A stretch of 32,906 nt of DNA, from positions 1 to 32,906 of the forward strand of contig JACERO010000017.1 in NCBI GenBank assembly GCA_013911135.1. The letters are read 5' to 3'. Under the pieces are notes generated by a model, which saw only the letters and a list, made by a program, of their open reading frames with translations, did no database searches and was not told where the DNA came from. Positions 1 through 32,906 of this stretch are shown here, one piece after another. Position 1 is the first letter of the stretch, and every line of letters begins with the position of its first letter. A program made the position numbers and the translations under genes. This stretch comes from Candidatus Nitrosopumilus sp. (lineage in GTDB: Archaea > Thermoproteota > Nitrososphaeria > Nitrososphaerales > Nitrosopumilaceae).

Positions 1-1
1 C

Positions 2-603
2 AAATTGTTATTAGTTGATAGAGAGTTTTTTACAGCTGGAATAATTTCTGTGATAAAACAAAAACACTTGAAATTTCTAATGCCTGCAAAAAAGACTCCA
101 AGAATTAAAGATGCCATTTTACAATATGTTAATAGAGATAGAAAATCAATTTCAAATTGTATGATACAATCCGCATCAGGGCATGTCGAGTCATTTACTC
201 TAGTCATTTTACCAAACAAGAATGCAAGAAAAAAATCAAATCTTACAGACCAGTACATTACATTTGCAACAAATATTTCACCAAAAGAAATATCACACAA
301 CATACAATCCATTCCAACTGATTACAAGCAACGGTGGGGAATAGAGACAGGTTATGCCTGCATAGGAAGATTCAGACCAAAAACTATAGTTCAAACCAAT
401 CCATAAGGTTGCTATACTTTTACTATTCATTAATTTTGTACAATGCATGGATTATTACAAATTTGATAATATCTGAAGAATCGGATATACAAAATTACAA
501 ACCAATCATATCAATTGAAACTCTCAAATATTTCTTTGTGAAAATGATTGTGTATTATTTTAGAAATAACAAAAATAATTATTTCCTAGAATGTGTAATT
601 TGA
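2..603 (+). pseudogene. IS4-like DDE transposase, C-terminal part, frameshifted
   Basis: The reading frame is open to the window edge and starts with residues LLVDREFF, which fits the second catalytic Asp block of IS4-like transposases (D-R-x-F-F). It continues through FLMPAKK to YKQRWGIETGY, which contains the third catalytic Glu in the Y-x-x-R-W-x-I-E signature. Near 383-388, just after RFRPKT, the frame must shift: the typical following block (S-x-N-x-x-I-R-L-L-Y-F, then L-Y-N-x-W) is read in another frame from 388 to a stop at 601-603. The two halves join perfectly if one base is missing near 386. Either the copy is dead, or it uses frameshifting, or there is a base-call error. No classical heptameric slippery site is seen (only CCAAAAAC). 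Confidence 0.75.
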
Positions 604-605
604 TG

Positions 606-623
606 TACTTTCCCATCTACTGG
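606..623. repeat. Right terminal inverted repeat of IS copy 1
   Basis: The sequence TACTTTCCCATCTACTGG is the exact reverse complement of 32779-32796. The match stops at both sides (605 and 624 no longer pair with 32797 and 32778), which defines an 18-bp terminal repeat and places the IS boundary at 623. Confidence 0.8.
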
Positions 624-5031: not shown

Positions 5032-6444
5032 TTATGATTCCTTAGGCATCCATCGTAGATTCAGCTGGCGTGCTGCCTTTACCTCATCTAATCTTCCAGG
5101 TGTTGTATGAGGCGAATTTTTGACTAATTCTGGGTCTTCTTTTAGTTCTTTGATGATGGTTTTCAAGACCCTGGCAAACTCATCTAGTGTGTCTTTGCTT
5201 TCAGTTTCTGTGGGCTCTATCATCAAGGCCTCTTTCACAATCAATGGAAAGTAAATTGTAGGTGCATGAAAACCATAATCTATAATTCTTTTTGCAATGT
5301 TGATAGTACTTTTCTCACCAAAGTTTTTTGCAGATATGACAAATTCATGTGCACATCTTCTATCATATGGTACATCAAAGTCTTCTTTTAGTAAACAAAA
5401 AAGATAATTTGCATTTAAAACTGCTATCTGTGAAACTTTTTGAATGTCTGATCCCCATGATTTTAAGTATGATAACGCACGAACAAGTATTCCAAAGTTT
5501 CCATAAAACGAATGTATCTTACCTACACTCTTTTCTTTGTTAGAATCAAAAACGAATTGTTCATTTTCTTTTTTAATTCTTGGTACTGGTAAATAATCTT
5601 CAAGAAATGATCTAACTCCAAGTGCTCCTCCGCCAGGTCCACCACCACCGTGTGGTGTAGAAAATGTCTTGTGCAAGTTAAGATGCATCATATCAAATCC
5701 TTGATCTGCAGGTTTACTAATTCCCAAAAGTGCATTCATGTTTGCACCATCACAATACATCAGAGATCCATTTTCTTTTGCAAGATCTTTGATCTCAGAT
5801 AAATTCTCTTCATATAATCCCAAAGTATTTGGATTTGTAATCATTACAACTGCCACATCTGGTCCTATTGCCTTTTTGAATTCATTAATGTCCATGTTTC
5901 CACGATCATCTGTTGGAATCGTAACTGTTTGGAATTTACACATAGCTGCAGTTGCAGGATTTGTTCCATGAGCAGAGTCAGGAATTATTATTTTGGTTCT
6001 GGTTTCATTTTTTTCTGCAAAATATTTTTTGGCAATCATTACTCCAAGTAATTCACATTGTGAACCTGCAGATGGCTGAAGAGAGAACGCATCCATTCCA
6101 GTGATTTCTTTTAGATTATCTTCCAGCTCCCAAATAACCTGCAATGCCCCTTGTGCGTGACTAGCAGGCATGTGTGGATGCAGATCTGAGAATCCTTGTA
6201 GTTTGGCAAGATCCTCATTGACTCTAGGATTATACTTCATGGTGCATGAGCCTAGAGGATAGAAATTGGTATCAATTCCATAATTTTTTCTTGATAACTC
6301 AGTGTAGTGTCTAATAATTTGAATCTCATTTACATCACATAATGGAAGATATCTTCTTTTTAGTTCTTCAGGCAAATCTACATCCTTTTCTTGAGAAGGT
6401 ATATGCTTTGTATTTGATTGGATGTAGTTAAAAATTAATTTCAT
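5032..6444 (-). CDS. gcvPB: Glycine dehydrogenase (decarboxylating) subunit 2
   Basis: A 470-aa PLP-dependent subunit of the P-protein, which decarboxylates glycine and transfers the aminomethyl group to lipoyl-GcvH. The PLP lysine is Lys259 in HLNLHKTFSTPHGGGGPG. DSAHGTNPAT (about 156-165) and the glycine-rich loop after Lys259 are typical. In this lineage the P-protein is split into two chains, with the N-terminal half encoded just upstream. The start ATG overlaps the gcvPA stop as ATGA, indicating coupled translation and 1:1 assembly. Length agrees with archaeal and Gram-positive GcvPB. Confidence 0.95.
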   Translation of the reverse strand: MKLIFNYIQSNTKHIPSQEKDVDLPEELKRRYLPLCDVNEIQIIRHYTELSRKNYGIDTNFYPLGSCTMKYNPRVNEDLAKLQGFSDLHPHMPASHAQGALQVIWELEDNLKEITGMDAFSLQPSAGSQCELLGVMIAKKYFAEKNETRTKIIIPDSAHGTNPATAAMCKFQTVTIPTDDRGNMDINEFKKAIGPDVAVVMITNPNTLGLYEENLSEIKDLAKENGSLMYCDGANMNALLGISKPADQGFDMMHLNLHKTFSTPHGGGGPGGGALGVRSFLEDYLPVPRIKKENEQFVFDSNKEKSVGKIHSFYGNFGILVRALSYLKSWGSDIQKVSQIAVLNANYLFCLLKEDFDVPYDRRCAHEFVISAKNFGEKSTINIAKRIIDYGFHAPTIYFPLIVKEALMIEPTETESKDTLDEFARVLKTIIKELKEDPELVKNSPHTTPGRLDEVKAARQLNLRWMPKES

Positions 6445-7694
6445 TTACTTACCGCCGAAATATACGAATCAATATCTTGAAGTGAATTTTTTTCAGTGCA
6501 ACATACCAATAATTTATCATCTCCAACATCTATTCCACCAAAAATGTCACATTCCATCAAATCTGCAATTATTTTTTCAGATGGTTTTGGTGATTTTACT
6601 AGAAATTCATTGTAAAATGGATTTGTGTTGATGGAATCAAATCCATTTTTTCTCAACTTTTCATGCAAAAGATGTGCTCTATGATATGATGCTCTTGCTA
6701 CATTTTGAAGTCCAGATTTTCCTAATAATGCCAAGTAAATTGTTGCAGTTAATGCCAGTAGTGTCTGATTTGTAGTGATGTTACTTGTGGCACGTTCCCT
6801 TCTGATGAACTGCTCTCTTGCTTGTAATGTCAAAACAAAACCTTCATTGCCTTGGTTATCCATAGTCATTCCTACGATTCTTCCTGGCAATTTTTTTGTC
6901 AAAAATTGTTTTACTGCAATAAATCCTAGATAGGGACCGCCAAAACTTTTTGGTATGCCAAACGCTTGACCTTCTCCTACAACAACATCTGCACCAAATT
7001 CTCCAGGAGTTTTGAGTATTGCCAAAGAGGTTGGATCTGAGATACAGTTTATGAACAGTGCATTGTTTTGGTGAGCCATATCAATCAAACCTTGAGGGTT
7101 TTTGATATTTCCATAAAAGTCAGGAGTCTGTGAAATCACACATGCAGTGTTTTTATCAATAGTGTTTGTAATGGTTAGTTCTGTTCCATCACAATATGTT
7201 TGAAGAACTTTCAGATATTCTGGATTAAGTCCATCATCCACAAAAACATCCTTTCGTTTGGTATGTGCACTGGATAACAATGCTGCTTCAGCCAAAGCTG
7301 ATGCACCATCATAAAGAGATGCATTTGAGACATCCATGCCTGTAAGTAGGCATATGAATGACTGAAATTCGTATAAAACCTGCAGAACTCCTTGACTAGC
7401 TTCTGGTTGATATGGAGTGTATGATGTCAAAAATTCTCCTCTTGATACAAGATGATTAATCACCGATGGTATGTAATGATCATAAGACCCACCACCTACA
7501 AAGTATTTCATAGCCGAATTTTTTTCTGACAAAGACGTAATGTATGAAACTAATTCTATCTCACTTAATGGATTGTCTATCTTTAATTCAGAAAGTTTTG
7601 GTTTGAATTCTGAAACCAATTCATCTAATGTTGAACATCCAACAACTGAAAGCATTTTAGAAATATCTTCTTTTGTATGTGGAATAAAGTTCAT
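6441..7694 (-). CDS. gcvPA: Glycine dehydrogenase (decarboxylating) subunit 1
   Basis: A 417-aa N-terminal-half subunit of the split P-protein. It starts with FIPHTKEDISKMLSVVG, the usual beginning of GcvPA. YFVGGGSYDHYIPSVI is followed by FLTSYTPYQPEASQG, which forms part of the active-site entrance, and IRRERATSNITTNQTL lies further on. The chain contributes to the heterotetramer rather than carrying the PLP lysine. It lies three bases after gcvH and overlaps gcvPB by four. No defect is seen. Confidence 0.95.
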   Translation of the reverse strand: MNFIPHTKEDISKMLSVVGCSTLDELVSEFKPKLSELKIDNPLSEIELVSYITSLSEKNSAMKYFVGGGSYDHYIPSVINHLVSRGEFLTSYTPYQPEASQGVLQVLYEFQSFICLLTGMDVSNASLYDGASALAEAALLSSAHTKRKDVFVDDGLNPEYLKVLQTYCDGTELTITNTIDKNTACVISQTPDFYGNIKNPQGLIDMAHQNNALFINCISDPTSLAILKTPGEFGADVVVGEGQAFGIPKSFGGPYLGFIAVKQFLTKKLPGRIVGMTMDNQGNEGFVLTLQAREQFIRRERATSNITTNQTLLALTATIYLALLGKSGLQNVARASYHRAHLLHEKLRKNGFDSINTNPFYNEFLVKSPKPSEKIIADLMECDIFGGIDVGDDKLLVCCTEKNSLQDIDSYISAVSK

Positions 7695-7697
7695 TGA

Positions 7698-8078
7698 TTA
7701 CTCCTTATTCTGTCCTACTAGTTCATCATATTGTTCTTTAGAAAGCAAAGAATCTATTTGCTCAGGATTACTTGGTTTTATTTTCACAATCCATCCTTCT
7801 TCATAGGGTGACTGATTAATTAATTCTGGATGCTCTAATAGTTTTTCATTAATTTCAATAATTTCTCCATCTACTGGACAGTAGATATCAGATGATGCTT
7901 TGACAGAATCTATGATTACCATGACATCATTTTGTTTGAACGAACTTGAAACTTGAGGTAATTCAATTGATACTATGTCTCCAAGCTGATCTTGTGCAAA
8001 TTCTGTTATTCCAACAATTATGATTTGATCGCTTTTTTCAATCCATTCATGTTCTTTAGTAAATTTTTTTTCTGCCAC
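7698..8078 (-). CDS. gcvH: Glycine cleavage system H protein
   Basis: A 126-aa lipoyl carrier protein that shuttles the aminomethyl group between the P, T and L proteins. The sequence begins KFTKEHEWIE and contains GITEFAQDQLGDIVSIELP. The lipoylation hairpin is IIDSVKASSDIYCPVDG with Lys60 as the modified residue. The usual E-S-V-K is D-S-V-K here, a mild change. The C-terminal part (SPYEEGWIVKIKPSNPEQID) is complete. It lies 36 bp after gcvT and 3 bp before gcvPA. It is the probable substrate of LplA/LplB and LipA encoded in the same locus. Confidence 0.95.
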   Translation of the reverse strand: MAEKKFTKEHEWIEKSDQIIIVGITEFAQDQLGDIVSIELPQVSSSFKQNDVMVIIDSVKASSDIYCPVDGEIIEINEKLLEHPELINQSPYEEGWIVKIKPSNPEQIDSLLSKEQYDELVGQNKE

Positions 8079-8114
8079 GGCAAACTTTGAAATAATCTCA
8101 TTAAAAAAGTTGTT

Positions 8115-9170
8115 TTATCTTTTATAAAATCTAGTAGATGTTAATCTACTGTCATAGAATTTACTACCAATATCGAGCTTAATTTCTCTCTCCAAAGGAT
8201 ACTCTACCGGTACAAAACAATATCCAATTGGCTTTCCAAGTGTAGGGGAGAAACTACCTGATGTTACAATTCCGATCTCCTTTTCCTCATCGTAAATCTT
8301 GTTATCTTTTCTAGCAACTCTTTGTGCTTCGATAATTTCAAAACCTCTCATTTTTTTCTCTACTTTTTTCTGTTCAAGTGCAGCTTTTCCTATAAATTCA
8401 GTCTCAAATTTGACGGTCCATTTTAGTGGAGCCTCAAGTGGAGTAATTGTTTCATCAATGTCATTCCCATAAAGCATCAATCCTGCTTCAAGTCTTAGTG
8501 TGTCTCGTGCGCCCAAACCAATTGGCTTTATTCCATATTTTGTACCAGTCTCCAATAATTTTTCCCAAACTTGCACCTGTTTTGAATCAAAAAATAACTC
8601 AAATCCATCTTCACCCGTGTACCCAGTTCTTGAAATAATACAATCAACATCGTATAGTTTAGTTTCAAGCAAATGAAATGATTTGAGATTTTCTATTTGT
8701 TCAACACCTGCATCTTTTAACACATTTTCTGCTTTTGGACCTTGTAGTGCTAATAATGCATAATCATCTGTGACGTTTTGAATTTCACATGACTTTGCAT
8801 TTTCTGTGATCCAATCAAGATCTTTTTTGATGTTTGATGAATTGACAATAACTACAAATTCATTTGAATTAATTTTATTAACTATCACGTCATCTACTAT
8901 TCCACCATCTTCATTACACATTGGAGAATAGATAACCTGTTTGTCACCAATTTTTGAAATATCATTTGTTATCAAATGTTGTATTTGTGATTCTGCTTCT
9001 CCTTTGATTTTAAATCTACCCATGTGAGAAACATCAAACAACCCAACGCTTTCTCTAACATTTTTGTGCTCATCAATAATTCCAGAATATTGTAATGGCA
9101 TCTCCCATCCATGAAAGTCAACCATCTTAGCATTCGATTCTAAATGATTTTTGAAAAATGGTGATCGCAT
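8115..9170 (-). CDS. gcvT: Glycine cleavage T protein (aminomethyltransferase)
   Basis: A 351-aa protein that takes the aminomethyl group from GcvH, releases ammonia and forms methylene-tetrahydropterin. Typical parts are MVDFHGWEMPLQYSGI (about 16-31), GLFDVSHMGRF (about 43-53) and NEDGGIVDDVIV (about 86-97) with the catalytic Asp at 93/94. SRTGYTGEDGFELF follows, then LGARDTLRLEAGLMLYGND. It is the first gene of the nine-gene operon. A TATA-like ATATAAC on the minus strand (9193-9199) lies about 26 bp before the ATG, so the mRNA is probably leaderless. There is no room for a glycine riboswitch. Confidence 0.95.
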   Translation of the reverse strand: MRSPFFKNHLESNAKMVDFHGWEMPLQYSGIIDEHKNVRESVGLFDVSHMGRFKIKGEAESQIQHLITNDISKIGDKQVIYSPMCNEDGGIVDDVIVNKINSNEFVVIVNSSNIKKDLDWITENAKSCEIQNVTDDYALLALQGPKAENVLKDAGVEQIENLKSFHLLETKLYDVDCIISRTGYTGEDGFELFFDSKQVQVWEKLLETGTKYGIKPIGLGARDTLRLEAGLMLYGNDIDETITPLEAPLKWTVKFETEFIGKAALEQKKVEKKMRGFEIIEAQRVARKDNKIYDEEKEIGIVTSGSFSPTLGKPIGYCFVPVEYPLEREIKLDIGSKFYDSRLTSTRFYKR

Positions 9171-9192
9171 GCAAAATAAAATGTTATTATTC

Positions 9193-9199
9193 GTTATAT
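9193..9199 (-). promoter_or_regulatory. TATA-like box of the gcv operon
   Basis: ATATAAC on the minus strand is centred about 26 bp before the gcvT ATG at 9170, the archaeal TATA-to-start distance for a leaderless mRNA. It overlaps the first possible lipA ATG (9198), which argues for the downstream lipA start at 9213. Confidence 0.45.
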
Positions 9200-9212
9200 G
9201 TTCATTGAATCG

Positions 9213-10094
9213 ATGAGCTTAATCCGGCCAAGCTGGTTAAAAATGAAAATTCCTTCAGGTGAAAATTATCTCAAAGTAAGAAAGACTTTACAAAAATACA
9301 ATCTACATACTGTTTGTGAAGAGGCATCTTGTCCTAATATTTCTGAGTGCTGGGGTGTAGGTACTGCAACAATTATGATCATGGGTGATGTGTGTTCCCG
9401 TGGATGCAAATTTTGCAATGTTGAAACTGGGAAACCCTTCGAATTAGACTCTAAGGAACCACAACATGTAGCAGAAGCAATCAAAGACTGGAATCTGCGT
9501 TATGTGGTAATCACATCTGTTTGCAGAGATGATCTACCAGATGAAGGCTCCAAGCATTTTGCTAGGACTATACAATGCATAAAATCTGAATGCCCAAATA
9601 CAGTAGTTGAGTCATTAATTCCTGATTTTAGTGGAAATGAAAAATTCATCGAAACAATAGTAAAAGCAAAACCCAATGTAATTGGTCATAATGTTGAAAC
9701 TGTCAAAAGACTAAGCTTATCTATTAGAGACCTTCGAGCAAATTATAATCAATCACTGAAGGTTCTAAAATATGTAAAAGAATTAGATTCTAGCATTTTT
9801 ACAAAATCATCTTTGATGTTGGGATTAGGCGAATCAGAAGAAGAAATTCTACAAACTGCCCAAGAACTCAGAGATGTTGATGTTGATATCATTACTCTTG
9901 GTCAGTACTTACAACCATCTTTATCGCATCTTTCAGTAAAGGAGTTTGTAACCCCCGAAAAATTTTACCAATTAAAACTTGATTTGAAAAAACTAGAGTT
10001 TCTTCATGTAGAATCTGGTCCATTTGTTAGAAGTTCATTTAGAGCATCAGATGTAATTGATCTCATTATGAAAAACACGGATAAGAGTAGCTAA
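9213..10094 (+). CDS. lipA: Lipoyl synthase (radical SAM)
   Basis: About 293 aa. It inserts two sulfurs into protein-bound octanoyl chains to make lipoyl groups. The LipA-specific auxiliary cluster motif CEEASCPNISEC (C-x4-C-x5-C) is followed by the radical-SAM motif CSRGCKFCNV (C-x3-C-x2-C). The C-terminal VESGPFVRSSFRA supplies the serine that ligates the auxiliary cluster. An in-frame ATG at 9198 is possible, but the family normally begins just before RPSWLKMKIPSGENY, and the gcvT promoter lies over the earlier codon, so 9213 is preferred. The gene is divergent from the gcv operon, and the two start regions are only about 40 bp apart, so they probably share regulation. No LipB is seen here; LplA/LplB may supply octanoyl or lipoyl groups. 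Confidence 0.94.
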   Translation: MSLIRPSWLKMKIPSGENYLKVRKTLQKYNLHTVCEEASCPNISECWGVGTATIMIMGDVCSRGCKFCNVETGKPFELDSKEPQHVAEAIKDWNLRYVVITSVCRDDLPDEGSKHFARTIQCIKSECPNTVVESLIPDFSGNEKFIETIVKAKPNVIGHNVETVKRLSLSIRDLRANYNQSLKVLKYVKELDSSIFTKSSLMLGLGESEEEILQTAQELRDVDVDIITLGQYLQPSLSHLSVKEFVTPEKFYQLKLDLKKLEFLHVESGPFVRSSFRASDVIDLIMKNTDKSS

Positions 10095-10114
10095 ATCAAA
10101 TTCTTAATTAACAA

Positions 10115-10121
10115 TTTTTTT
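10115..10121 (+). terminator. Oligo-T terminator after lipA
   Basis: Seven T residues follow the lipA stop by about 20 bp, inside the 43-bp gap to the convergent L10 gene. Oligo-T runs of this kind act as intrinsic terminators in archaea. No stable hairpin is evident. Confidence 0.4.
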
Positions 10122-10137
10122 GGTTCTAGATTTTAAT

Positions 10138-11004
10138 TTATGCAGGTGTGTAATCTTTTGCTTGTCCAGCAACTGCTTTTGCTTGAGCATCTGCCTTTTG
10201 CAATATTTGCTCCTTTGTTTCATCAGTCATATAACCTAATTCTACAGATACGGAACGTGCAGATTGTGATGCAGTACTGAGTATTTGTGAAATATTTTCT
10301 GGGGTAACATATGCTGCTTCAATAGATAGTGATATTGCTTCTTGGTGAGCTTGTGCAAATCCTCCTCTGATTTTCTCAACATCAATTACCATCTCTTCTT
10401 CAGCATACTTGAGTCCATCTTCTAGTGCTGCATAAAGTGAAATTCCAGCCTCTACTGGCTTGATATCTAATTTTCCAAGAATTGCTGCTAATTTTTCATT
10501 GATCGCTTCGCCTTTTAATACAGGAGTACTATCCTTTGCAATCCAAATTGTTCCTTGGTCAATTTTAGTTGGAATGCCTGCTTCTTTGAATTCTGTAAGC
10601 ATTGGTCCTGGTGCAATTCCTGTATTTTTTGCAGGTACTACAATGTCTATACTTGCAATATCTCCTCCTCTTGCAATCATCATGATTTTGTTTTTGGCTA
10701 GAAGAACATTTAGCTTGAATGGTGACATGTTGGTAAACATGAACATGCATTGTCCTGTAAGTTCTCCAATCATGTCCTTGATTCCTGGTACATCTAATTT
10801 CTCAAGTGCTTTTTTTGCAACTTTGTCTTTGATACTTACAAATTCAACGTCATCTTTGAGAATTTTTCTTAATGGCAATATTTGTGTAGACCGTACTTTG
10901 TTCATTTTGATTATAGCTAGAACTTTGTATTTTTTTGGTAACTCTTGTAATTGTTGATACATTTGGGTTTTTCTTTTAGGATAAGTTGTTCTATTTTCAT
11001 GCAT
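10138..11004 (-). CDS. rpl10: Large ribosomal subunit protein L10 (P0, uL10)
   Basis: A 288-aa stalk base protein that binds 23S rRNA and carries L12 dimers. The N-terminal domain includes YKVLAIIKMNKVRSTQILPL and CMFMFTNMSPFKLNVLLAKNK. The archaeal/eukaryotic insertion domain contains VPAKNTGIAPGPMLTEF and TKIDQGTIWIAKDSTPVLK. The C-terminal half is the helical spine for L12 binding, but it ends in AVAGQAKDYTPA without the long acidic tail seen in many archaeal P0 proteins. It overlaps the L1 gene by eight bases. No L12 gene follows; lipA is convergent instead. Confidence 0.93.
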   Translation of the reverse strand: MHENRTTYPKRKTQMYQQLQELPKKYKVLAIIKMNKVRSTQILPLRKILKDDVEFVSIKDKVAKKALEKLDVPGIKDMIGELTGQCMFMFTNMSPFKLNVLLAKNKIMMIARGGDIASIDIVVPAKNTGIAPGPMLTEFKEAGIPTKIDQGTIWIAKDSTPVLKGEAINEKLAAILGKLDIKPVEAGISLYAALEDGLKYAEEEMVIDVEKIRGGFAQAHQEAISLSIEAAYVTPENISQILSTASQSARSVSVELGYMTDETKEQILQKADAQAKAVAGQAKDYTPA

Positions 11005-11659
11005 GTTTCTTCTTAACCTCTTGCACTTGTTTTACTGGTTTACCCATTGTAGTTTTTATTATTATTTTCTTGATGTTCTTTTCTCCGTTTGGTAATTTCT
11101 TTTCAATTGCACTAAGAACAGCATGTGCATTAATTGCCAAGTCTGCATCTTCCATAGTTTCATTTCCAATTTTACATGATATGGATAAGGATGCTCTTGT
11201 TCTTACTTTGATTGATGATCTAAATCTTTGTAAAAATGACTCTATTGGTGCATCAAATGGAACTGGTGTTGGCATTTTTCCCCTAGGACCTAAAAACTGA
11301 CCCAAAGTTTTTCCTATAAGTGGCATAACTTTTGTGTCTGCCAAAAAGAAATCATATTTGTTAATAAATTTTCGAGATTCTCTTTTGTTAGTTGCAAATT
11401 TCTCTAATTCATCTGTTCCAATAACTGCATCAGCATTTGCCTGTTTTGCTTTCTGACTCATATCTCCTGTAGCCATAACACAAACAGTTGCTGGAGAACT
11501 TGTCTTTGGAAGTTGAACTATTTCGTTTAGGGCAAATCCTTTCTTGACATCTATATCTTTGAAATTAATAATTAACTCTACAGATTGTGTGAATTTTTTC
11601 TGTTTAGTTTCAGTCTTTGCTTTTTTAATCACTTCAGCAAATTGTGTCTCTGTAATCAT
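10997..11659 (-). CDS. rpl1: Large ribosomal subunit protein L1 (uL1)
   Basis: About 220 aa. It forms the L1 stalk and often represses its own operon in archaea. Recognisable stretches are VELIINFKDIDVKKGF, KYDFFLADTKVMPLIGKTLG and LGPRGKMPTPVPFDAPI, followed by KIGNETMEDADLAINAHAVL and the C-terminal IIIKTTMGKPVKQV. The start at 11659 (MITETQ) is preferred over 11668 (MCVMITETQ) because a TATA-like TTTTAAGTA on the minus strand (11682-11690) is centred about 26 bp upstream of it. L1 has its own promoter here because a regulator gene separates it from L11. Confidence 0.93.
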   Translation of the reverse strand: MITETQFAEVIKKAKTETKQKKFTQSVELIINFKDIDVKKGFALNEIVQLPKTSSPATVCVMATGDMSQKAKQANADAVIGTDELEKFATNKRESRKFINKYDFFLADTKVMPLIGKTLGQFLGPRGKMPTPVPFDAPIESFLQRFRSSIKVRTRASLSISCKIGNETMEDADLAINAHAVLSAIEKKLPNGEKNIKKIIIKTTMGKPVKQVQEVKKKHA

Positions 11660-11681
11660 TACGCACATTTTCGAGAAAGCC

Positions 11682-11690
11682 TACTTAAAA
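11682..11690 (-). promoter_or_regulatory. TATA-like box before L1-L10
   Basis: TTTTAAGTA on the minus strand lies about 26 bp upstream of the L1 ATG at 11659. It implies that L1-L10 is transcribed separately from secE-nusG-L11. Confidence 0.4.
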
Positions 11691-11731
11691 TCGTTTAGAG
11701 GTTAAGATTTTTGATTATTGATTATTTAAAA

Positions 11732-11765
11732 AAATTACACTTTTTCTATAAAATAACTGTAATTT
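11732..11765. repeat. Imperfect dyad between L1 and the Lrp gene
   Basis: AAATTACA (11732-11739) and TGTAATTT (11758-11765) form an 8-bp inverted repeat with 18 bp between the arms. It lies in the 166-bp divergent region between L1 and the Lrp/AsnC gene, so it could be a regulator site. AT-richness makes chance pairing possible. Confidence 0.3.
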
Positions 11766-11792
11766 AAAAGGAAATTTATCTCAAAACCTACA

Positions 11793-11800
11793 TATATTAA
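11793..11800 (+). promoter_or_regulatory. TATA-like box of the Lrp/AsnC gene
   Basis: TATATTAA is centred about 28 bp before the ATG at 11826, fitting a leaderless or nearly leaderless archaeal transcript. Confidence 0.45.
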
Positions 11801-11825
11801 ATCATAACCATAATTTTCTAACGCG

Positions 11826-12281
11826 ATGCACAGATTTGATGAACTTGATATGAAATTGCTTTATGAATTAACCAAAGACGGATCTATTTCGGTTCCTATT
11901 TTGTCTAAAAAACTTGGGATCAACGCTTCTGTGCTTTATAGTAGAATCAAGAGATTACTAAAGAAAAAACTGATAAAAAAATTCACTGTAGAAATTGATG
12001 ATTCTCTCTTAGGTATTGGTGTAAAAGCTACTGTTGGAATAAATCGAGATCCAAAGTTTAAGGATGCAATTCATAAAAAATTCATGGAAACATCAGAAGT
12101 TGTATCTATCTCAGAAATTACTGGTAGATTTGACATAATGATTCAAGTTTATGCAAAGAACCTTGAATCTCTTCATTCTGTGGTAATTGAAAAAATTGGA
12201 AAAATAGAAGGCATTCAAAATACTGAAACCTTTGTAGAATTACAAAAAACTGATAAAGATCCTGTTTATTTAATTCAATAA
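11826..12281 (+). CDS. Lrp/AsnC family transcriptional regulator
   Basis: A 151-aa regulator. The N-terminal winged helix is FDELDMKLLYELTKDGS followed by the recognition region KLGINASVLYSRIKRL (about 28-43). The C-terminal RAM/ligand domain contains VVSISEITGRFDIMIQV, the typical dimer/octamer surface with a G-R-x-D motif. Family members sense amino acids or metabolic state. It sits on the plus strand between L11 and L1, which are usually adjacent. Its stop codon abuts the L11 stop codon with no base between. Its target is unknown; autoregulation and control of the divergent L1-L10 unit are the obvious candidates from position alone. Confidence 0.88.
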   Translation: MHRFDELDMKLLYELTKDGSISVPILSKKLGINASVLYSRIKRLLKKKLIKKFTVEIDDSLLGIGVKATVGINRDPKFKDAIHKKFMETSEVVSISEITGRFDIMIQVYAKNLESLHSVVIEKIGKIEGIQNTETFVELQKTDKDPVYLIQ

Positions 12282-12761
12282 TTATTGGAATTTTTCATCC
12301 CATTTGCCTTCGTTAATTTCGACAGTAATTTCTTTTGGGGTCTTTCCTTCTACTTTTACACCTAATGCTACACATGTACCAATGATGGTTTTTGCAACAA
12401 ATTTTAATGAAGAAGCATAAGATTTCTCAAGTTTTGTATTTGCTACTTTTACAATTGAATCCATTGTGACATCTCCTGCCCATTCGGTACCTGATGCGCC
12501 TGATCCTTTTTGGATTCCAGCTTCTTTCATAATGAGTGCTGCAGCTGAAGGAATGCCGATTTCAATTTCATATTTTTTTGTATCGTTATTAACAACAACG
12601 GTTACTGGAACTTTCATCCCCTCAAAGTCTTTTGTTTTATCATTAATTGCTTTGATGACTTCCATAATGTTAACCCCTAATGGGCCTAATGCTGGACCTA
12701 ATGGCGGACCTGCAGATGCTCCTCCTCCTGTTACAAGTGCTGATACTTTTTGATCTCCCAT
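12282..12761 (-). CDS. rpl11: Large ribosomal subunit protein L11 (uL11)
   Basis: A 159-aa protein of the GTPase-associated centre. The N-terminal domain GGGASAGPPLGPALGPLGVN (about 13-32) contains the conserved proline/glycine loop. VPVTVVVNNDTKKYEIEIG follows, and the C-terminal rRNA-binding domain includes MDSIVKVANTKLEKSYASSL and IIGTCVALGVKVEGK. It follows nusG by 35 bp in a secE-nusG-L11 unit and meets the Lrp gene tail to tail. Confidence 0.95.
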   Translation of the reverse strand: MGDQKVSALVTGGGASAGPPLGPALGPLGVNIMEVIKAINDKTKDFEGMKVPVTVVVNNDTKKYEIEIGIPSAAALIMKEAGIQKGSGASGTEWAGDVTMDSIVKVANTKLEKSYASSLKFVAKTIIGTCVALGVKVEGKTPKEITVEINEGKWDEKFQ

Positions 12762-29425: not shown

Positions 29426-29526
29426 GCCGGGGTCGCCTAGCCTGGTAGGGCGCGCGCCTGGAAATAATTAACCATAAAGCGCGTTCTCGCAAGGGAACAG
29501 GAGTTCAAATCTCCCTCCCGGCGCCA
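29426..29526 (+). tRNA. trnS: tRNA-Ser(GGA) with 14-nt intron
   Basis: The cloverleaf was folded by hand. Acceptor GCCGGGG pairs with TCCCGGC (one G-T pair). The D arm has a 3-bp GCC/GGC stem with A14, G18-G19 and A21. The anticodon stem is CGCGC/GCGCG. The anticodon is GGA at 29460-29462. A long variable arm TTCTC-GCAA-GGGAA marks a class II tRNA. The T arm is GGAG-TTCAAAT-CTCC with an A-C mismatch at 49-65. The discriminator is G, as expected for archaeal tRNA-Ser, and CCA is encoded. An intron of 14 nt (29464-29477) sits between positions 37 and 38. GG of the anticodon can pair with CC of the intron, as in a minimal bulge-helix-bulge. Confidence 0.93.
29464..29477 (+). other. Archaeal tRNA intron, canonical 37/38 position
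   Basis: The 14-nt sequence ATAATTAACCATAA interrupts the anticodon loop after A37. TGG (29459-29461) and CCA (29472-29474) can pair to form a short central helix. The exact borders can move by one or two bases on sequence alone. Confidence 0.75.
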
Positions 29527-29634: not shown

Positions 29635-30429
29635 TTATAGGGCTTTCATGTGTTTGTACAGGGCATAAATTATAATCATAAAACATGCTGTCCAACCTGA
29701 ATTAATTGGGTAATTGTGAGTAAATTCTTCAATTGTTTCTAAATAAAAGAAGACAGAATCTGATATGGTCCACAACAATATCCCTGCTGCTAATAGTAAC
29801 CATGTTTCTTTGAGAACTGAATGACGAAAAACACTTGCACCTACAACTGCAAAAGCTAGTGTTGCTGATGTTCCAACAATAAATAAGTTGCTATAGACTA
29901 GGTCAAACAAGAGCTCGTCATATTCTCCCCACTCCATATATGCAATCATTGAAAAGCTGCTAACTGCAATAATTGGAATCACAACAATGGTTGCTTTCAT
30001 TGTTTTGTTCCATTGTGGTCTAAAGTATTTTGTGTTAAGACCAAGATGTAAGATTGCAAAAATATAGCTTACCAAAAAACCTATGTCAAAAGGAGATGGA
30101 TATGGATCCCACCCTAATACAAATTGTTGATAATAATATCCTACATCTCCTATAAACCAAGCAAAAAATCCTAATCCTAAAAATAAATATGCTTTTCCAA
30201 GCATTTCTGAACCGCGATATCTTTTGGCAACAAAAATAGAAGCTATTCCACAACCTGCCATTCCTGCCATAAAGAATCCATCTTTGATGTCAAAGTATGA
30301 GCCATCAAAAAAATACAAACCATAGATGAGATCTATCATGGTTAGTCCAATAATTAGAGCGATGATTTTGATGTTGATTTTATTGGACTTTTTTTCAACA
30401 TGCTTTGCACTTGGAATTTTCTCATTCAT
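29635..30429 (-). CDS. Multi-pass membrane protein, stand-alone sensor-type module
   Basis: A 264-aa protein with about eight hydrophobic helices after a short basic N-terminus. One loop has WFIGDVGYYYQQ, followed by WDPYPSPFDIGFLVSY. The W-x-x-G-D and P-Y-P-S-x-x-D pattern is reminiscent of membrane domains that precede GGDEF or histidine kinase domains in bacteria. The second half contains a related motif (WTISDSVFFYLETIEEF), suggesting an internal duplication. There is no attached output domain. A small TATA-like stretch on the minus strand (about 30455-30464) is at the right distance from the ATG. Function is unknown. It lies downstream of a regulator gene and near a nucleotide cyclase, so a signalling role is possible but not shown. 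Confidence 0.65.
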   Translation of the reverse strand: MNEKIPSAKHVEKKSNKINIKIIALIIGLTMIDLIYGLYFFDGSYFDIKDGFFMAGMAGCGIASIFVAKRYRGSEMLGKAYLFLGLGFFAWFIGDVGYYYQQFVLGWDPYPSPFDIGFLVSYIFAILHLGLNTKYFRPQWNKTMKATIVVIPIIAVSSFSMIAYMEWGEYDELLFDLVYSNLFIVGTSATLAFAVVGASVFRHSVLKETWLLLAAGILLWTISDSVFFYLETIEEFTHNYPINSGWTACFMIIIYALYKHMKAL

Positions 30430-30527: not shown

Positions 30528-31378
30528 TTATTTTAGAAGTTTGGATTCTTGGAATTTTGTGCTGTTATCCCAGCACCATGTAAAATAGTCATAACACCAT
30601 TCACAAAATTTTGAATCATAACTATAAAACATCTCATGTAGATCTGTTATTCCCTCAAGATTTGGAAAAAATACTGCTGATTCTTTGTCTGTGACTAATA
30701 CTATCACTGTAACATTTTTTTTAATCCTTCTTTCTAAATTTCCATTTTTTACATATTTTTGAAAATCCTTTTCTTCAAAAATCTTTTCTCTCTCTTCTGG
30801 AATTATTACCTTGTCTGAAAAAACAGAGTGAATATGCAGATCACTTTTCAATTGTTTGGAAATAACTTCTACAATATCACTTGAATATGGAATTTCAGAC
30901 AAAATATTGTAAATGAATTTTTCAGCATTTTCATGTATTTGTCTCCATTTTTCTAATGTTTTGACATAGCCTTTTACTTGTTTTTTATTTTCTAGTGAAC
31001 CTATTCTCTGAATAAACCTCTCATCAAGATTTCCCAAAGTGTGATTAGTAAAGAATTGTTTGTTTTCTGCAAAAAATGATAGTGAAGGAATTTGTACTAA
31101 AATTGCATTTCCATATACTGTTAATCCATAATTTCCATCAACATCCTTCTCAATTAATCCTGCTTTCGTTAATCTAGTAACATTTCTATGAATTTCTGGT
31201 TTTGTTGCATCAATATATTTGCTAATTTTGAAATATTGAGCTTATTTTTTGCTATATTTCTTATAATGTTCAATCTCTGCTCACTAGATAATTCTAAAAA
31301 ACTATTTGCTATGTTATCTGATTCATAACCCATAGGATTTGTATCAAAAATATAGTCTAAAACGTTACTATTGGACAT
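30528..31378 (-). pseudogene. Winged-helix regulator with DUF1724/FilR1-type domain, frameshifted
   Basis: An archaeal HTH regulator of about 283 aa in two frames. The first part (31378 to about 31214) includes LELSSEQRLNIIRNIAKNKL and ISKLANI. The second frame continues from about 31211 as DATKPEIHRNVTRLTKAGLI, which is the recognition helix and wing. It then runs through FFTNHTLGNLDERFIQRIG, typical of the methanogenesis-regulator (FilR1/DUF1724) domain, to the stop at 30528. One missing base near 31212-31214 explains the break exactly. The C-terminal end contains a cluster of Cys and Trp (CEWCYDYFTWCW). If truly broken, only a 69-aa N-terminal piece would be made. It is divergent from the cyclase. 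Confidence 0.7.
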
Positions 31379-31576: not shown

Positions 31577-32757
31577 TTGAATAATACAGTCCCTGAGGAT
31601 TTAATCCATGCTGCATTCTTCTTGTTGATATTGTTGGCTTATCTAACCCAATTCTTTCAACAGAGACTCAAAGAACAAAAATCAAACAACTATATTCAAT
31701 GATTTATGATTGCAAAACTTTTCTGGCAACTCCTAAAAGTGATCTTTTCATTTTGCCAACAGGGGATGGTATGTTAATTGGGTTTCAAGGAGGTTTAGAG
31801 CAGCCAATTTCTCTTGCAATAGAACTACATGCACGACTCCAAAAATATAATCAACTAGTACTAGATACAGAAAAAATTGCTACAAGGATAGGATGTAATG
31901 TAGGTCATATTTTTGTTGTCAAAGATCTTTTTGATAACATAAATTTGTGGGGTCCAGGAGCTATTCTTGCAAGACGTGTTATGGACTTGGGAAACGAAAA
32001 TCAGATTCTATTTCCTTCAACCATGATAACTGATCTTTTTGAAGTATCTAACAAATACGAAAATATCATTCACCCAATTCACAATTTTACAATAAAACAT
32101 GACGGTGAACTTCTTGTTTATTCTGTCTATGGCAAAGATTTTGGGAACAAAGTATCACCTACAAATTCCAGACAAACTAACATCATAACTACCCAAAATC
32201 CCAATTCTTCATATAAAAAAATTATTTTTAATATCCATATAAAAGATTTTGAGAAACCAAATTTGATCGCATATGAACGAATTTATGATTTTGCAAATAG
32301 TTCTAGAGAGCCTGTCTATACTATGGATGTAGAAATAATGACTCATACAAAAACTGATGTCCAGGATCTAAGCATAATGGTATTTGATGAGAACAACAAA
32401 GAATTAGAAATAACAAAAATCTTATCTACAGAATTTTCCAAAAAAATAACCATAAAATTAAATCGACCTGTCTTTCGAGGTAGCGACCAAAGATTAGTCA
32501 AAGTTACCTATGTAAAAAACGAGCAAAGTAATTTCTTTCAACATCAATTTTTGACAAAAACTGATAATTTTGAACTAAATTTCATAACTCGACATAATTT
32601 TCCAAATAAGCAACCTAACTTCTTCTTTATTGATAAAAATAACAACAAAACACTTGTTAGAGAATCAAAAAAAATCTCTAAAGGTATGTCTTATGTAACT
32701 ACATGGAAAATAAATGATAAAATCTATCTTAATGATATAATTCGTTTGGAATATTGA
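31577..32757 (+). CDS. Class III nucleotide cyclase with beta-rich C-terminal domain, N-terminal frameshift
   Basis: About 393 aa if one base is restored. Frame 1 starts at TTG 31577 (NNTVPEDLIHAAFFL). Frame 2 continues from 31624 as VDIVGLSNPILSTETQRTKI and runs into the long frame from 31699. The cyclase domain (about 10-185) has the first metal Asp in LVDIVG, the second in PTGDGMLIGF, RIGCNVGHIF for the following strand, and GPGAILARRVMDLG, which keeps the Arg of the N-x-x-x-R motif while Asn is replaced. A Ser/Asn-rich linker (about 195-210) leads to a C-terminal domain of about 150 residues, beta-rich and ending in WKINDKIYLNDIIRLEY. This layout resembles cyclases with an AGS-C-type sensor domain, as in Pycsar-like defence, but I cannot confirm that family. 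The product (cAMP, cGMP or cUMP) is unknown. Confidence 0.65.
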
Positions 32758-32778: not shown

Positions 32779-32796
32779 CCAGTAGATGGGAAAGTA
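32779..32796. repeat. Left terminal inverted repeat of IS copy 2
   Basis: Exact 18-bp inverted match to 606-623, with no further pairing on either side. Confidence 0.8.
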
Positions 32797-32906
32797 ACTC
32801 AAATTAGATCAGAAACTATCAATTATTCAATCAAATTATTCCGATAGAAAAAGCTTGATGATAGTGTATCATTTTATCAAATGTGAATCACAACTCATTT
32901 GATACC
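32779..32906 (+). mobile_element. Insertion sequence, left end of second copy, cut by window edge
   Basis: CCAGTAGATGGGAAAGTA (32779-32796) is the exact reverse complement of the right end at 606-623, so a second element of the same type begins here, reading rightwards. The remaining 110 bases show no long open frame; the transposase start presumably lies at or beyond the window edge (a GTG near 32881 opens a short frame). The insertion lies 21 bp after the cyclase stop. Confidence 0.75.

Follow-up and report, generated by a model that had tools for sequence, protein, structure and literature searches.

Results and discussion

Organization of the locus

The window (i.e. the whole stretch of 32 906 nucleotides from Candidatus Nitrosopumilus sp. 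that was analysed) carries near its right end a gene for a class III nucleotide cyclase-like protein, together with a divergent gene for a winged-helix regulator, the gene of a membrane protein with several transmembrane segments (hereafter TM8) and one end of an insertion sequence (IS) (Table 1). An earlier note on this DNA had listed the regulator, the membrane protein and the IS as neighbours of the cyclase, and all three were confirmed. The intron-containing tRNA gene at the left border was found by Rfam and missed by ARAGORN. The block cmk-truB-orf148-tRNA is collinear in six relatives, and the DNA after the tRNA differs in all seven genomes compared: the six relatives have no cassette at this place, and in the window genome the cassette lies between the tRNA and the IS end at 32779. 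In genome G066, 19 bases of the tRNA 3' end are repeated downstream of the tRNA (L137, positions 5184-5202), where they resemble an attachment-site repeat.

IS ends lie at both ends of the window contig, and they probably broke the assembly; the IS ends showed no target-site duplications that match. The start of a second contig, C18, consists of an IS end followed by a fatty-acid desaturase gene that is both truncated and broken, an oxidoreductase gene, likewise broken, and the genes that lie downstream in the relatives; a dehydrogenase is also broken there. The desaturase shares 55% identity with that next to the cyclase of genome G007. Because the start of C18 carries the other IS end and the downstream genes of the relatives, this contig and the window contig (C12) are probably neighbours, an adjacency read from synteny.

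Table 1. Features of the locus, in window positions.
Feature	Positions	Strand	Evidence and remarks
Other end of IS	1-623		DDE transposase (DDE_Tnp_1) at 2-406; also present at the start of C18
Intron-containing tRNA, probably Ser-GGA (by eye)	29426-29523	+	Rfam; left border of the variable locus
TM8, intact protein of 264 aa with 7-8 TM segments	29635-30429	-	Homology with a histidine kinase (its sensor half)
Winged-helix + FilR1-middle (PF08350) regulator	30528-31378	-	Pfam; divergent from the cyclase; one frameshift near 31220
Cyclase gene, 5' end	31577-31621	+	Begins with TTG, LNNTVPEDLIHAAFF; in another frame than the remainder; alignment with intact orthologues
Class III nucleotidyl cyclase domain	31624-32133	+	Guanylate_cyc in orthologues, Foldseek, active-site alignment
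C-terminal beta-sandwich domain (predicted), about 186 aa	32197-32754	+	Predicted structure, Foldseek, Pfam Ribophorin_I in 1 of 11 tails
Terminal inverted repeat and left IS end	32779-32906	.	Inverted-repeat end at 32779-32806; cut by the contig end

The cyclase gene

The region 31577-32757 of the plus strand, which had been presented as one gene, does contain a cyclase gene, but as two out-of-frame pieces, and no single frame covers the span. The frame opening at 31577 encodes about 15 relevant codons, LNNTVPEDLIHAAFF, and then continues into unrelated sequence up to a stop; the frame opening at 31609 encodes ILLVDIVGLSNP and runs on to the stop at 32757, with the VDIVGLS motif starting at 31624. 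The break is single, a one-base slip near 31621 (31621-31624). As the ATG at 31699 falls 3' of the codon for the first metal-binding Asp (D7, codon 31627-31629), the listed 352-residue open reading frame, taken as annotated, could not give an active enzyme.

Intact orthologues of 400-406 residues, 41-47% identical to the window copy, were found in three genomes of the genus. With an E of 6e-108 and 46% of 379 residues identical, the homology is far beyond chance. The intact orthologues match Pfam Guanylate_cyc above the cut-off, with E from 6e-7 to 2e-5; the window copy alone stays below it. The window gene codes for an unusual class III cyclase-like signalling enzyme but is interrupted by the frameshift, and an active cyclase is probably not made in the window organism.

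Catalytic domain and active site

A Foldseek search with the cyclase domain retrieved 3et6, 3mr7 and 4wpa (TMt about 0.7-0.8), i.e. the CHD fold. Fold, metal-binding Asp residues, Arg and the Guanylate_cyc matches of the orthologues bear out the assignment to class III made in the earlier note. That note had also seen both metal Asp motifs and the conserved Arg, and these residues are indeed there: in an active-site alignment of 35 clade members, anchored on two canonical cyclases, D7 (Me1), D53 (Me2, codon 31765-31767) and Arg123 are kept in every aligned member having those columns. The base-selecting positions, previously described as unclear, could be assigned from the same alignment. The Lys position is taken by Leu49 (Leu, Phe, Val, Ser, Ile or Met across the clade) and the Asp position by Asn112 (Asn in most members). 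The Asn of the N-x-x-x-R motif, i.e. the transition-state Asn, had been correctly recognized as replaced; its position is Ile119, is Ile or Val except in a few distant members, and holds Asn in none of the homologues. Thus Lys, Asp and Asn are all replaced in 35 of 35 aligned members, mostly by Leu, Asn and Ile respectively, whereas K, D and N stand at these positions in the two canonical thaumarchaeal cyclases. Since they extend across all aligned members, these changes are a property of the clade and not a sign of decay.

The best match of the window cyclase among proteins of solved structure is Ma1120 (E 6e-8), a class III adenylyl cyclase from Mycobacterium avium (PDB 4wp8, 4wpa). The two share the catalytic fold, the two metal Asp residues, the Arg and the lack of the transition-state Asn; however, Ma1120 retains the ATP-selecting Lys/Asp pair and has no beta-sandwich tail. 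Ma1120 is active with Ala at the Asn site, and the A164N mutation sharply lowers its activity (PMC4215837), so that replacement of the Asn does not rule out catalysis. Ile at this site is known from mycobacterial cyclase-like proteins (PMC4886424). That the clade is catalytic, and that it forms a cyclic nucleotide of whatever base, is inferred.

The C-terminal domain

A dedicated beta-rich C-terminal domain is present, as the earlier note had proposed, although with about 186 residues instead of the 150 given there. The tail modelled alone (pLDDT 89, pTM 0.85) is beta-rich, and all 50 PDB matches listed by Foldseek were M1-family aminopeptidases or proteins of the OST1/ribophorin I fold (E 9e-8 to 1.4e-6 and TMq 0.48-0.64 among the matches listed); the best viral structure match was the M1 aminopeptidase of Tupanvirus. 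A match to Pfam Ribophorin_I in one of the 11 family tails (E 6e-5) independently points in this direction. The fold, predicted with confidence, is a saddle-like multi-strand sandwich of the M1 aminopeptidase N-terminal (M1-N)/ribophorin I (OST1) type. The likeness lies in the predicted fold and the one Ribophorin_I match, but identity is about 6-14% and the cyclase protein contains no protease or OST parts. The domain was found in 20 of 299 genomes of the phylum, nearly all from one family, always within an open frame of cyclase length. Its role may be regulatory, through binding of a ligand or a partner.

The tail had been likened to AGS-C in the earlier note. No profile match to AGS-C (PF18134) was found in the window or its relatives, nor in the 11 tails even at a threshold as permissive as E <= 5; together with the different fold predicted by modelling, this speaks against AGS-C.

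The recurring cassette and its distribution

The regulator is intact in its orthologues (266-276 aa). PF08350 scored above the cut-off both in the window fragment and in an orthologue, and the HTH family PF25213 did so in the orthologue; with its HTH and FilR1-middle domains, the protein resembles the FilR1-type archaeal regulators. No link between such regulators and cyclases was found in the published literature searched. The regulator is the commonest neighbour of the cyclase, being present in 13 of the 37 cyclase-bearing loci. Distant clade members have a different regulator pairing, and in locus L024 the regulator and cyclase genes overlap by 4 bases.

For TM8, seven transmembrane segments were predicted, and its homologue is the N-terminal half of a histidine kinase of about 600 residues found throughout Nitrosopumilus. 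The earlier note had put it forward as a candidate effector; because of this homology it is better read as a stand-alone sensor, and a Pycsar-type effector is the less likely reading. In the window genome, further copies of the TM8 family, interrupted by stops, are located on contigs C55, C32, C38 and C79, which suggests that the family is expanded and decaying there.

Comparison of the neighbourhoods of homologues in other thaumarchaea, which the earlier note had recommended, revealed that the regulator and the membrane protein recur beside the orthologues. The window cyclase falls in a clade characterized by TM8, TPR protein and regulator (clade A, SH-aLRT 98). TM8 is encoded within a few kilobases of all seven clade A cyclases; the gene set CY2 (a second cyclase)-regulator-cyclase-TPR-TM8 occurs in four loci, and TPR and TM8 in two more. 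In clade B, the regulator and TM8 are mostly absent, and a single-TM protein lies beside the cyclase in most loci. This protein (179-221 aa, with the motif FRPW[IV]G) was seen in nine loci (L032, L036, L061-L066, L068), mostly convergent with the cyclase, and those of its members that were scanned matched no Pfam family above the cut-off. Because TM8 and the regulator families also occur in many genomes that have no clade cyclase, the cassette re-uses widespread parts.

The cassette is patchy, being found in 17 of 95 genomes of the genus, in keeping with the accessory locus previously proposed. Canonical class III cyclases, in turn, are present in 56 of 56 good genomes of the genus; it is therefore the noncanonical clade that is accessory, and not the presence of a cyclase as such. 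The cNMP_binding domain (CNB, PF00027) was absent from the 19 genus genomes searched, so that any receptor would have to be of another kind.

Origin of the frame breaks

The frameshifts might be errors of assembly, with an unbroken cyclase gene in the organism itself. Both breaks look like losses of one base in short homopolymers and lie near the contig end; moreover, long open frames flank the break and the catalytic residues are retained. However, no frame break was detected by a coding-potential scan of the preceding 29 kb (positions 1-29600), where the one unassigned stretch turned out to be a complete gene of 99 aa, and several genes at the same site, as well as several TM8 paralogues elsewhere in the genome, are also interrupted. 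The terminal branch of the window cyclase is long, 0.66 versus 0.07-0.17 in most of its sisters, although part of this length may be due to lateral origin rather than decay, considering that SecY is about 92% identical among the compared genomes and the cassette 36-57%. On the strength of the local clustering of the breaks, the long branch and the lack of breaks elsewhere in the first 29 kb, real local decay is favoured, assembly error being the less likely reading.

Possible function of the cassette

The reading we prefer, with a probability of roughly 0.6, is that the window locus represents a sensory cassette of Nitrosopumilaceae, specific to that lineage and here in decay, that includes a noncanonical cyclase. 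In intact relatives the cassette comprises the noncanonical class III cyclase, the winged-helix/FilR1 regulator, the sensor with 7-8 transmembrane segments and the TPR protein, in many cases joined by a canonical class III cyclase. A cue would be detected by the membrane sensor, by the beta-sandwich, or by both; the beta-sandwich is probably the binding site of a ligand or partner and the gate of the dimeric catalytic domain, which would then convert an NTP, of whatever base, into a cyclic nucleotide. The likeliest reader of this nucleotide would be the regulator, or else another cassette protein that has no CNB fold, and the outcome would be a change in transcription.

It may be asked whether the cyclase domain has any catalytic role. 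It could be a dead enzyme that senses an NTP or another ligand and acts on the regulator through direct contact between the two proteins, in which case no second messenger would be formed. The clade-wide replacement of Lys, Asp and Asn, the lack of known cyclic-nucleotide receptors in the genus sample and the position of the regulator as commonest neighbour would all fit. Yet both metal Asp residues and the Arg are kept in every member having those columns, which would be unusual for a pseudoenzyme, and Ma1120 demonstrates that the Asn is dispensable; we consider a dead enzyme unlikely. A specific form of the catalytic alternative must be regarded as equally tentative, namely that the cyclic nucleotide made by the clade has a base chosen outside the known residue codes, that its receptor is not a CNB protein (perhaps it is the FilR1-type regulator) and that control lies with the M1-N/ribophorin-like sensor. 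If so, ammonia-oxidizing archaea would possess a second-messenger circuit under an M1-N/ribophorin-like sensor domain.

The earlier note had connected the cyclase with phage defence through Pycsar, where infection, sensed in this case by an AGS-C domain, would trigger synthesis of cCMP or cUMP and activation of a membrane effector. The class III fold, the patchy spread and the variable tRNA-adjacent locus with its IS are what such a system might display, and the PycC cyclases (6YII, 7R65) likewise have a class III core in which the base-selecting residues are noncanonical (PMC11224242); these are, however, Phe/Arg/Gln or Tyr/Asp/Arg in PycC and Leu/Asn in the window clade. The PycC models of PADLOC-DB 2.0.0 are permissive, in that the ordinary class III cyclases found throughout the genus match them down to E 1.7e-33, yet the window protein and three full-length homologues remained without a match at E <= 10, and two further homologues without one at 0.01. 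Given that ordinary cyclases match, the missing match is informative and the PycC matches of CY2 are not; the latter were rejected as a sign of Pycsar, an ordinary cyclase of the genus (L100) scoring higher. In general, a PycC call from PADLOC-DB 2.0.0 on a model match alone is unsafe. No CNB-, TIR- or PycTM-like partner, nor any adjacent gene for a cNMP receptor-effector, was found among the cyclase neighbours, and the 72 neighbours gave only scattered generic PADLOC matches, nearly all from one member per family. Scans of phage, plasmid and viral collections, of which the pattern-based ones are of limited reach, returned no relative of the clade cyclase. With PF18134 missing, another fold predicted for the tail and CNB domains absent from the genus sample, a Pycsar-type system is very improbable, and a role of the window cyclase in phage defence is unsupported. 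Of the earlier interpretation, the class III cyclase, its dedicated tail, the accessory locus and the neighbours stand, but AGS-C and Pycsar are not supported. The only defence-like context encountered concerns a tail-less relative in genome G034 (L022, positions 5755-12467), where the clade cyclase domain overlaps a gene for an Mrr_cat nuclease, with a DrmD/ZorD-like SNF2 helicase nearby; this is a possible undescribed defence operon, and the one neighbourhood that would speak for the Pycsar reading.

Cyclic-nucleotide signalling in ammonia-oxidizing archaea is essentially uncharacterized, and cyclase counts have been taken as a measure of cAMP capacity in these organisms (PMC9289680). For the window clade this is doubtful, because the clade is not expected to obey the cAMP residue code and the genus sample contains no CNB receptor. 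The clade represents a new variant among class III cyclases, available as intact orthologues elsewhere in the genus, and the recurrence of cyclase, regulator and sensor in one cassette names the genes to be studied together. In genome G057, a KaiC-like ATPase is fused to a cyclase of this clade in two loci (L020, positions 8423-9871, and L021, positions 9375-10835), beside a MinD/ParA-like ATPase.
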